From positions 1 through 40,805 of the forward strand of contig CADCIH010000020.1 of assembly GCA_902801465.1 (NCBI GenBank): DNA of 40,805 nt, written 5' to 3'. This stretch comes from an uncultured Bacteroidia bacterium. GTDB lineage: Bacteria > Bacteroidota > Bacteroidia > Bacteroidales > F082. Shown here one piece after another: positions 2,614 through 4,567 of this stretch (position 1 is its first letter; every line of letters begins with the position of its first letter). Made by a program: the position numbers and the translations under genes. A model generated the notes under the pieces. It was not told the origin of the DNA. It saw only the letters and a list, made by a program, of their open reading frames with translations, and ran no database searches.

Positions 2614-3675
2614 TTAATACTTTTTTCTGCCTTCTATCTTCTGATAATGGCACATCAAAATGCCCTCAGAATCTTTTCTGTGTAGGTGAAAAGCGCCTCC
2701 CAGACAGTTTTTGTAAACCTTGCAATCGCTACAGATGCCCGTGCGCATCCAGCTGCGGTCGCGGAAAGGCTGGAAACGGTTTTCCCAGACATCGAGGAAA
2801 TCATCTTGATAGATATTGCCTTGTGCGAAGCGGCGGTCGATGTTGGGGCAGGCGGAGATGGAGCCATCCACTAGGATGGACCCTATGGTGATGCCGGCCC
2901 GGCAGAAGTAATACCAGTCGCGCACCTTGCGTTCGTAAGGTCCCACGTAGGCTTCGCAGCTGAACTTGGCGTCGATCTTGCCTTCCTTGCGTGTAGCGAC
3001 GATGAAGTCCATCAGTTGTTGAAACTGCTCGTTGTTGAGTTGTAGGTTGGGGTCGTTGGCGGCGCGACCGATGGGCTCGATGGTGAAGAAACGCCAAGCC
3101 TTTACGTGGTGCTCGATAAGCAGTTGCTTCAGTTCTTCTAGTTCATGTAGGTTCATCGGACTGACGCAGGTGACCACGTCGTAGGCGAGTTTCCGCTTCT
3201 CGTTGGCCACCAAATCGATGGCTTGGAGCGCATGGTCGAAGCTGCCTTGGCGTTTGCGGAAGGCGTCGTGGGTGTCGCGCAATCCGTCGAGACTGAAGGT
3301 GACGCTGCACAGTCCGGCGGACATCAGCTCTTTATGGCGAGCCTCGTCGTAGGCCCAGCCGTTGCTGACGATGCCCCAGGGGAAGCCATGTTGCCGTAGT
3401 TGCCGCCCACAGTCGGCAAGGTCCTTGCGTACCAAAGGCTCGCCTCCGGTGATGACGACCAGGATGGAGTTGCGCTTGAATCGGTTCTCAAGAGGTTGGA
3501 TGGCCTTCAAGAAATCCTCAAAGGGCATGTCGTGATACAACGACGATGCCGTGCAATCGGAACCGCAGTGCCGACAGTTGAGGTTGCATCGTTGGGTGCA
3601 TTCCCAGAAGAGATAGTCCAACTCGTGAAGCTGGGTCTCCTTCTTCCGGAAATAGTTATGGAAGGCCTGAAGCAT
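2614..3675 (-). CDS. radical SAM/SPASM enzyme of the rSAM/lipoprotein system
   Basis: A 353-residue radical SAM enzyme. The 4Fe-4S motif C-x3-C-x2-C is at Cys30, Cys34 and Cys37 within ECTQRCNLNCRHCGSDC. The GGEP motif of SAM binding follows (VITGGEPL). The C-terminal SPASM region has ISACPN, CSDCKVYKNC and a final Cys, enough ligands for auxiliary clusters. The pattern LFWECT-x-RCNL, FPWG-x-V-x-NG and YDVVTCV matches, from memory, the Bacteroidetes family TIGR04133, whose partner is a small lipoprotein (TIGR04134). The start lies 2 nt after the stop of such a lipoprotein gene, so the two must be co-translated. Inferred role: modification of a peptide in the neighbouring lipoprotein. The chemistry is unknown. 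Confidence 0.92.
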   Translation of the reverse strand: MLQAFHNYFRKKETQLHELDYLFWECTQRCNLNCRHCGSDCTASSLYHDMPFEDFLKAIQPLENRFKRNSILVVITGGEPLVRKDLADCGRQLRQHGFPWGIVSNGWAYDEARHKELMSAGLCSVTFSLDGLRDTHDAFRKRQGSFDHALQAIDLVANEKRKLAYDVVTCVSPMNLHELEELKQLLIEHHVKAWRFFTIEPIGRAANDPNLQLNNEQFQQLMDFIVATRKEGKIDAKFSCEAYVGPYERKVRDWYYFCRAGITIGSILVDGSISACPNIDRRFAQGNIYQDDFLDVWENRFQPFRDRSWMRTGICSDCKVYKNCLGGAFHLHRKDSEGILMCHYQKIEGRKKY

Positions 3676-3677
3676 GA

Positions 3678-3872
3678 TTATTCAGCCTCAGCCTCGATGG
3701 TGGCTTGTTGATCGACGTCTTGGACGGTGTCGTTGTCAACGACGTATTCCTCCTCGTCGTAGTCGTACTCCTCAACCGGATGAGGCGCACCGTAGCAAGC
3801 CTGCATCACGAACATCACGGTGGCGAAAGCCGAGGCTTTCAGCAGACCTCTGAAGAACTTGTAGGTTTTCAT
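3678..3872 (-). CDS. very short lipoprotein, candidate substrate of the radical SAM enzyme
   Basis: 64 residues. There is a basic N-terminus (MKTYKFFRGLLK), a hydrophobic stretch and a lipobox MQAC with the lipidation site at Cys26. The mature part begins CYGAPHP and continues as an acidic, Tyr- and Asp-rich tail of about 30 residues with YDYDEEEYVV and VDNDTVQDVD. A YGxP motif close to the N-terminus is, as I recall, the shared feature of radical-SAM-associated lipoproteins of Bacteroidetes, which usually continue into a beta-sandwich domain of about 100 residues. That domain is absent here. It is placed 5 nt after a membrane protein gene and 2 nt before the radical SAM gene. The substrate role is inferred from this linkage. 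Confidence 0.85.
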   Translation of the reverse strand: MKTYKFFRGLLKASAFATVMFVMQACYGAPHPVEEYDYDEEEYVVDNDTVQDVDQQATIEAEAE

Positions 3873-3877
3873 ATTGT

Positions 3878-4567
3878 TTATTTTTTAATGCTCAATAACA
3901 CGCCGAGGACCACACCCAGGAAGGCGGCAAACAGCACCTGAAGGGTCGGGGGCAGCAGGAAAGTGATGGTGTGGGCGGGATACCAAAACAGCGGGATGGT
4001 CTTGGCAAAGACGAAGCCATATTGGATATCCCAATTGATCTTCTTTGAAAGGGCCTCGCGGATTTTCAGGGGACTGCTGAAAAAGCCTTTAAGCGAGCCC
4101 CCGGTCTCGGCGATGTGGATGTCGGTGATTTTGTGGAAGGTCATGAACACCGGTGCGAACAGCGTGTTCATCAGCACGCTTACGCAAAGGGCTACGAAGA
4201 ACTTTCCCCAACTAAGGCTACCAGCGAACCATTCGGCAGCCTTGCCGTTGAGGTGGAAGCCGCCATCCAACAACTTGACGGTACCCGTCTTGAAGATAGT
4301 CATGGCCGAGGCAATGACTACACCCAACACGCCCCAAACCAAGAGTTTGGGCAATAACCCGAAACCTTTCTTGATATACACGCCTTCGCGGATGCGCAAG
4401 GCCAACATCTCGCCAAAAGTGCCGAGAAGGGCAAATTTGAAGAAACTCATCAACAGGCCGTGCTTGGCTGTGGTGGTGTTGAACCAGTCCCAAGCACCTG
4501 GGATGAAGGCGAAGCCGCAAACCACTGCGGCGACGATTAATATCGTGATGAGGTCGGCTTTTTTCAT
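3878..4567 (-). CDS. polytopic inner-membrane protein, function unknown
   Basis: 229 residues with about five hydrophobic helices. The chosen start (MKKADL) overlaps the stop of the upstream gene as ATGA; a longer open frame to 4645 only reads back into that gene. Conserved-looking stretches are FGEMLALRIREGVY, APVFMTFHKITD and a C-terminal IPLFWYPAHTITFLLP. The order of a His/Lys motif followed by a Trp-Pro-His helix recalls distant Mpv17/PMP22-type membrane proteins, but I would not assign it to that family. It is translationally coupled to the 107-residue protein upstream and is 5 nt before the radical SAM lipoprotein. Confidence 0.75.
   Translation of the reverse strand: MKKADLITILIVAAVVCGFAFIPGAWDWFNTTTAKHGLLMSFFKFALLGTFGEMLALRIREGVYIKKGFGLLPKLLVWGVLGVVIASAMTIFKTGTVKLLDGGFHLNGKAAEWFAGSLSWGKFFVALCVSVLMNTLFAPVFMTFHKITDIHIAETGGSLKGFFSSPLKIREALSKKINWDIQYGFVFAKTIPLFWYPAHTITFLLPPTLQVLFAAFLGVVLGVLLSIKK

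Follow-up and report, generated by a model that had tools for sequence, protein, structure and literature searches.

Radical SAM enzymes of the family TIGR04133 and adjoining lipoproteins of the family TIGR04134 form a known, uncharacterised pair. A YGxP motif near the lipobox Cys is presumably a feature of the TIGR04134 lipoproteins, and it is also observed in the relatives compared here. A search covering part of the literature found neither TIGR04133 nor TIGR04134 mentioned by accession. Two described chemistries bear on such a motif: three-residue cyclophanes provide a precedent for crosslinks made by radical enzymes, and the splicease PlpX/PlpY, whose PlpX component we take to be the family TIGR04103, acts on a Tyr-Gly target. 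PlpX belongs to IPR026482 (PMC11002830, cited from part of the text), and the part of PMC10533398 drawn on here reports that PlpXY excises tyramine at XYG, with a mass change of -135.0757 Da. The sites named in that part are MYG, LYG and an engineered GYG, a Cys before the Tyr not being among them. It also lists as modified an FtsZ splice tag that contains GYGLP, that is, a YGxP sequence, and as unmodified several shorter LYGLP or GYGLP tags elsewhere in FtsZ (PMC10533398). A precedent for the order of events is found among the DAG-RiPPs of Bacteroidota, where, in the excerpted text, the DybA/DybH precursor bears a lipoprotein signal peptide and undergoes cytosolic modification before it is lipidated (PMC12636315).

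In this study, we describe a pair of this kind in a window of 40,805 nucleotides, the whole stretch of DNA that was analysed, from an uncultured gut bacterium of the class Bacteroidia. The window pair is a minimal-substrate form of the TIGR04133/TIGR04134 pair, and it is real and conserved. As in that system, the enzyme scores above the TIGR04133 cut-off and adjoins a lipoprotein with YGxP near the lipobox Cys; the window lipoprotein differs in having neither the Ig-like domain nor a TIGR04134 match, and carries an acidic tail of 34 residues instead. With PlpX/PlpY the locus shares the XYG target, satisfied in the window by CYG, and PlpX relatives that score below the family cut-off are the nearest neighbours of TIGR04133 in our sample. 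Unlike PlpX, however, the window enzyme stays far under the TIGR04103 cut-off (102.6 bits against 725) and lacks one SPASM Cys; a PlpY-like gene did not stand out in the 22 largest clusters of neighbouring genes, and the substrate would be a lipoprotein rather than a peptide with a Nif11 or nitrile-hydratase-like leader. The DAG-RiPPs, also of Bacteroidota, likewise combine a lipobox precursor and a putative cytosolic modifying enzyme in one unit, with no obvious separate recognition protein nearby, as far as the consulted part of PMC12636315 describes them. Their enzyme, in contrast, belongs to the iron-dependent MNIOs and targets a Cys motif at the C-terminus, and the term "radical SAM" has 0 occurrences in the main text (PMC12636315).

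The gene pair and its flanks

Both genes lie on the minus strand. The lipoprotein, the putative substrate, is encoded by an ORF of 64 amino acids with an ATG start (positions 3678 to 3872), and two nucleotides (3676-3677) separate its stop from the ATG of the enzyme, a radical SAM/SPASM protein of 353 amino acids (2614 to 3675). This is the arrangement that an earlier note had reported from the letters of the DNA, and both ORFs were found where it placed them. On the same strand, a gene for a membrane protein of 229 amino acids lies 5 nt upstream of the pair (3878 to 4567) and marks its insertion point, while an ABC transporter ATPase gene, named by its NCBIfam match (1671 to 2495), forms the downstream boundary in pair-less loci. 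Because these ABC transporter and membrane genes are found around pair-less loci too, they are not counted as parts of the pair. A palindrome, AGTGTA-N12-TACACT, is located just upstream of the ABC transporter genes (2525-2548) and presumably resembles the operators of GntR/YtrA-type regulators; a loose pattern finds a similar palindrome in 10 of 58 loci checked, and a GntR-like gene, named by reading, occurs in 25 of the 52 loci of the enzyme clade to which the window belongs.

The enzyme matches TIGR04133 with 476.4 bits (NCBIfam; E 4.6e-143, cut-off 425) and, above the gathering scores of Pfam, PF04055 (E 1.7e-18) and PF13186 (E 2.2e-7). It was compared with 194 distinct enzymes from fetched loci (phmmer, E 1e-60 or better), which are not independent since the loci were chosen as best family matches. 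The radical SAM cluster motif CxxxCxxC, Cys30/34/37 (3565 to 3588, minus strand), was found as the earlier note had it and is present in 194 of 194 relatives, a count that reflects the exclusion of motif-less enzymes when the set was assembled, although none was reported. The SPASM end named in the same note is also there (2650 to 2904, minus strand; Cys258, 276, 315, 318, 324 and 342), in an atypical form: the last Cys of CX2CX5CX3C is replaced by Ala328 in the window, and it is Cys in 0 of 194 relatives, which have Gly, Ala or Ser. This replacement suggests that an auxiliary cluster is altered. A Cys is kept at the positions of Cys41 and Cys240 in all 194 relatives and at that of Cys170 in 193; these extra, near-invariant cysteines of TIGR04133-like enzymes are absent or rare in 10 PlpX-like enzymes. 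A structure model of moderate confidence (pLDDT 71.6, poor at the SPASM end) resembles many radical SAM enzymes, first SkfB, BlsE, SuiB, PqqE, DesII and anSME. By reading of the sequence, the enzyme N-terminus has no evident signal peptide.

Matches to TIGR04133 at E 1e-80 or better occur in 94 of 393 genomes of the order and 82 of 173 of the family. They fall into rough score bands, by which we define clade A (about 500-615 bits), clade B (about 440-490 bits, that of the window) and clade C (about 333-372 bits, under the cut-off), the bands of A and B touching each other. About 30 genomes of the same genus carry both a clade A and a clade B enzyme, and one enzyme (in G738) that scores between the bands is nearer to clade A (55% against 45% identity). 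Close relatives with named records come largely from uncultured Bacteroidales of ruminant guts. Two records titled Treponema (L316, L325) contain Bacteroidales-like clade B enzymes, either through a binning error or through transfer.

In the lipoprotein, all parts of which are again on the minus strand, a signal peptide (residues 1-25; 3798 to 3872) that is strongly conserved in the alignment A1 (n=23) ends in the lipobox VMQA-C26, whose Cys26 (3795 to 3797), the predicted lipid anchor, is invariant in that alignment. The motif Tyr27-Gly28-Ala29-Pro30 (3783 to 3794) follows directly and, by comparison of partner proteins, contains the predicted modification site at Tyr-Gly. An acidic tail (residues 31-64; 3681 to 3782) completes the mature protein of 39 residues and holds the element D48-T49-V50 (3723 to 3731), which conforms to D[TS][LIV]. 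The lipoprotein has no Pfam or NCBIfam match above cut-off. TIGR04134 was absent among its matches at E up to 1 (cut-off 39.8 bits), and a TIGR04134 search of its own genome at E 0.001 gave no match. EexN was considered as its identity and dismissed as a chance match (13.2 bits against a cut-off of 33). The assignment to the TIGR04133/TIGR04134 pair in the earlier note is thus borne out by the score of the enzyme, whereas the lipoprotein goes undetected by the TIGR04134 model. The companion claim, that canonical partners carry an additional domain of about 100 residues that the CYGAP protein of the window lacks, was supported, one such partner (L070) scoring 110.7 bits to TIGR04134.

Tyr-Gly in partner lipoproteins of different architecture

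A lipobox ORF with the strict YGxP motif lies within 2 kb upstream of 173 of the 194 enzymes. Another 13 adjoin a YG lipoprotein (10 without the Pro; in the other three, YGxP lies downstream or a contig edge cuts the partner), so that a YG lipoprotein stands beside 186 of 194 enzymes in total. Of the remainder, one has a partner reading CYAPAPY, two lie at a contig edge, and for five no candidate partner was found nearby; homologues of the enzyme therefore widely adjoin a YG(x)P lipoprotein, although not in every case. Because the 13 further YG lipoproteins include the 10 that are Pro-less, Tyr-Gly is more constant than Pro. The proposal of the earlier note that the window holds a minimal substrate stands in its main inference, the core being Tyr-Gly rather than YGxP.

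The partners comprise 121 medium, 41 short and 38 helical proteins, some labels being doubtful: the short ORFs of L174 (49 amino acids) and one of two in L161 (59 amino acids) have YGPP four places after the Cys and resemble cut medium forms, the L203 partner is possibly truncated, and L088 and L091 are doubtful as helical. Judged by sequence comparison, YG(x)P thus sits in unrelated scaffolds, namely an Ig-like domain, an acidic tail and a helical protein. In the helical partners the strict motif occurs once (n=15), twice (n=16) or three times (n=7), far from the Cys, and these partners stand mostly beside clade A enzymes of the same genus. Within the run of such loci from L087 to L119 (for example L097, L098 and L113), helical lipoproteins contain as many as three YGxP motifs, most of them YG[SP]P. 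When five other partners were scored against TIGR04134, L070 and L323 (51.1 bits) were above the cut-off, each with a domain past the motif; L137 (34.8 bits) and the clade C partner L202 (19.7 bits) were below it, and the helical L097 partner had no TIGR04134 or Pfam match at E 0.01. Weak CarboxypepD_reg matches, under the gathering score, were obtained for three of six partners scanned.

Over 235 motifs, the x of YGxP is Thr (92), Ser (62), Pro (21), Met (19), Val (17) or Ala (15) in 226 cases, and in one it is Gly. The occurrence of YGxP in the partners is not a chance match: shuffled mature sequences contain it on average in 0.4 of 39 short, 2.4 of 121 medium and 0.4 of 38 helical partners. 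The motif is found in 0 of 37 lipobox ORFs of enzyme-less loci, a small set, and in one of the 13 lipobox ORFs of the window, which is the lipoprotein itself. Lipobox ORFs from other parts of the enzyme loci serve as a weaker control: 20 of 166 have the motif, in a set that still includes tandem partners. Two loci (L124, L134) are tandem pairs of two enzymes and two lipoproteins in which the partner of the first enzyme reads KYGD, not YGxP. In L389, from the genome G738, a lipobox-free frame of 99 codons (about 4213-4512, minus strand) directly follows a clade A enzyme and contains two YGPP and a DSV; it is a possible non-lipoprotein substrate.

A third conserved gene, such as an RRE, a protease or a transporter, did not emerge from the 22 largest neighbour clusters: with antisense frames and presumed partner lipoproteins set aside, each same-strand family is confined to at most 14 of the 142 loci that lie outside the clade of the window. 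An ABC ATPase cluster is present in 36 of 52 loci inside the clade and 9 of 142 outside it.

Joint occurrence and the short form

Each of the 38 genomes of the genus that hold a clade B enzyme also gives a match to the lipoprotein profile A1, an agreement that is partly circular since some of these genomes supplied sequences for A1. In total 41 genomes match this profile, which also detects long forms sharing the signal peptide. Three of them lack a counted enzyme: in G776 a contig end interrupts the enzyme gene, and in G819 the contig stops just after the lipoproteins. The third, G779, has no clade B enzyme, and none was found at the locus itself, where a lipoprotein frame with a similar signal peptide is kept; CSGSP replaces CYGxP there, and D[TS][LIV] is missing. 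The sole case of a lipoprotein kept without the enzyme, in one genome, has thus lost the Tyr on comparison with its relatives.

The flanking membrane gene served as the anchor for fetching 20 enzyme-less loci. Of these, 16 hold both flanking genes, and only the membrane gene was found in the other four; neither gene of the pair was matched by tblastn in those 16. The flanks are less than 400 bp apart, with no N run seen, in 10 of the 16. The other loci with two flanks contain an N run (L366) or, in five cases, 0.5-2.8 kb or an extra gene between the flanks (an extra gene in L360, L368 and L369; 0.5-0.9 kb in L363 and L365). Also among the 16, a more distant ABC ATPase, of about 60% identity, is encoded in L373, L375 and L378. 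Because of the A1 genome counts and these enzyme-less loci with two flanks, the pair tends to be present or absent as a unit.

The enzyme clade of the window comprises 52 loci (phmmer above 600 bits): the window, 37 of the same genus, three of another family of the order and 11 named records. A short CYGxP lipoprotein, with 35-48 mature residues and the lipobox Cys preceding the Tyr, is encoded in 37 of them, of which seven also carry a medium lipoprotein; the other 15 have medium forms only. The window lipoprotein is therefore as small as the earlier note had it, without being the one-off that the note's "unusually small" implied. The 37 short tails average 33% Asp+Glu, with a net charge of -7 to -16, and D[TS][LIV] is found in 37 of 37 (shuffled mean 3.6, maximum 9 in 200 runs); since these tails are related, this recurrence reflects conservation and not 37 independent cases. 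The short lipoprotein is under purifying selection, with a dN/dS of 0.06-0.08 for the signal peptide plus CYGxP (0.06 in 25 close pairs) and of 0.27 for the tail in the same 25 pairs. As both the signal peptide and D[TS][LIV] are conserved, the enzyme may need more than the motif.

In a FastTree phylogeny of the 194 enzymes, in which the program flagged long branches and some partner labels are doubtful, the window lies among 12 all-short sequences (support 98) within the 52-locus clade (support 100). Short forms are also found in L283, L284 and L296, whose neighbours in the tree have medium partners only, and in L319, next to which stands the medium L323, so that the short form has apparently had about three origins. 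Parsimony for short versus not-short on this tree, with partner-less loci excluded, requires six changes.

Candidate reaction and its alternatives

These comparisons, which concern the pairing, its joint presence or absence, the constancy of YG across scaffolds and the loss of Tyr in one relative, suggest that the lipoprotein is probably the substrate of the radical SAM enzyme, modified at the Tyr of Tyr-Gly in the cytosol and then exported and lipidated. We infer the reaction itself, its order relative to export and its chemistry. Having no evident export signal, the enzyme should act before export: it would recognize the precursor in the cytosol with the signal peptide still attached and alter the Tyr of YG just past the lipobox Cys. 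The modified precursor would subsequently pass through Sec export, lipidation at Cys26 and cleavage. In the product, the altered YG site would directly adjoin the lipid anchor and be followed by an acidic tail of about 34 residues. Recognition would not depend on the Ig-like domain that other partners have.

The kinship with PlpX guides the choice of chemistry. A search of 296 genomes of the phylum gave 11 matches to TIGR04103 at E 1e-50, spread over nine genomes and all below the cut-off, and in the TIGR04133 search these places rank next after two true members (151-181 bits; the next match has 112). BLAST against the window enzyme gives 107-154 bits for 10 PlpX-like enzymes and 49-83 for 19 others; all of the former have one Cys that the window enzyme lacks. 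In a tree of 49 enzymes, the TIGR04133 and PlpX-like sequences lie on one side of a branch versus 16 others (95/90); this tree excludes L050, L059 and L061, and its 16 others are weak TIGR04133 matches with no characterised maturase among them. An earlier tree with seven PlpX-like sequences set TIGR04133 apart (95), with a weakly supported PlpX-like group (66) and L059 on a very long branch beside TIGR04133. Among curated models, TIGR04053 (127 bits), NirJ2, AhbD and MftC score the window enzyme slightly above TIGR04103. In L379 (genome G245; 815-2865), the best PlpX-like gene (417 bits to TIGR04103, below the cut-off) is preceded by two small DUF1843 ORFs, which read MPYGV and VLYGV close to the N-terminus; the three genes are a candidate splicease unit of Bacteroidota. 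These peptides resemble the window lipoprotein in being small, in having YG near the N-terminus and in adjoining a related radical SAM enzyme; they differ in that they are not lipoproteins and have no Pro after YGx.

Since the nearest relatives in the sample are PlpX-like, tyramine excision is the most interesting testable chemistry, and we tentatively regard excision from XYG, as carried out by PlpX, as the leading candidate, with odds well short of even. In the window and its relatives it could, on an equally tentative view, convert the lipid-anchored Cys to a reactive ketoamide at the membrane anchor, possibly a protease trap, and multi-copy helical partners would carry several such groups. 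A crosslink at the Tyr is given somewhat less weight than excision, and what is left goes to other changes at the Tyr or nearby. Such an intramolecular crosslink would start from the Tyr ring and reach, for example, the second residue after it, giving a three-residue cyclophane Y-G-x, with no excision. A beta-carbon is available at x in 234 of 235 motifs, and the peptide-crosslinking maturases SkfB and SuiB are among the top matches of the structure model; the spread of x over Thr, Ser, Pro, Met, Val and Ala is, however, large for a crosslink partner, and the nearest sampled relatives are PlpX-like, in a tree without a characterised cyclophane maturase. We consider a crosslink of this kind unlikely.

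It is also improbable, in our estimate, that YG(x)P is a binding or sorting element only and that the enzyme modifies another residue of the lipoprotein, for example in D[TS][LIV], or another molecule. The tripeptide is indeed widespread, occurring in 38 of 39 short, 36 of 38 helical and 96 of 121 medium partners, compared with 4 of 117 control lipobox ORFs no longer than 130 residues (3.5 when shuffled), and the G779 protein lacks it as well as the Tyr. In the medium partners, however, the D-T comes towards the end of the Ig-like domain, where its role may be structural, and 25 of 121 lack the strict form. The distance of the tripeptide from YG differs between classes. YG is the more constant of the two; multi-copy partners repeat it, although they often have several copies of D[TS][LIV] as well. 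Very little weight, finally, is left for the short lipoprotein as a decaying remnant, with the true substrate of the enzyme elsewhere in the genome. The own genome holds a single copy, no second partner was seen at the window locus, and the tails vary in length and sequence, all of which would fit decay; against it stand the low dN/dS of tail and signal peptide alike, the D[TS][LIV] retained in every short tail, the prevalence of the short form in the clade and its apparent separate origins.

Modification of the lipoprotein at Tyr-Gly hence remains the reading that we favour. With the putative substrate cut to 39 residues, YG constant and one natural case of Tyr loss, the question narrows to a single short peptide and a few testable mass shifts. 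If excision were true, gut Bacteroidales would bear lipoproteins with an electrophilic backbone group that would escape ordinary proteomics.
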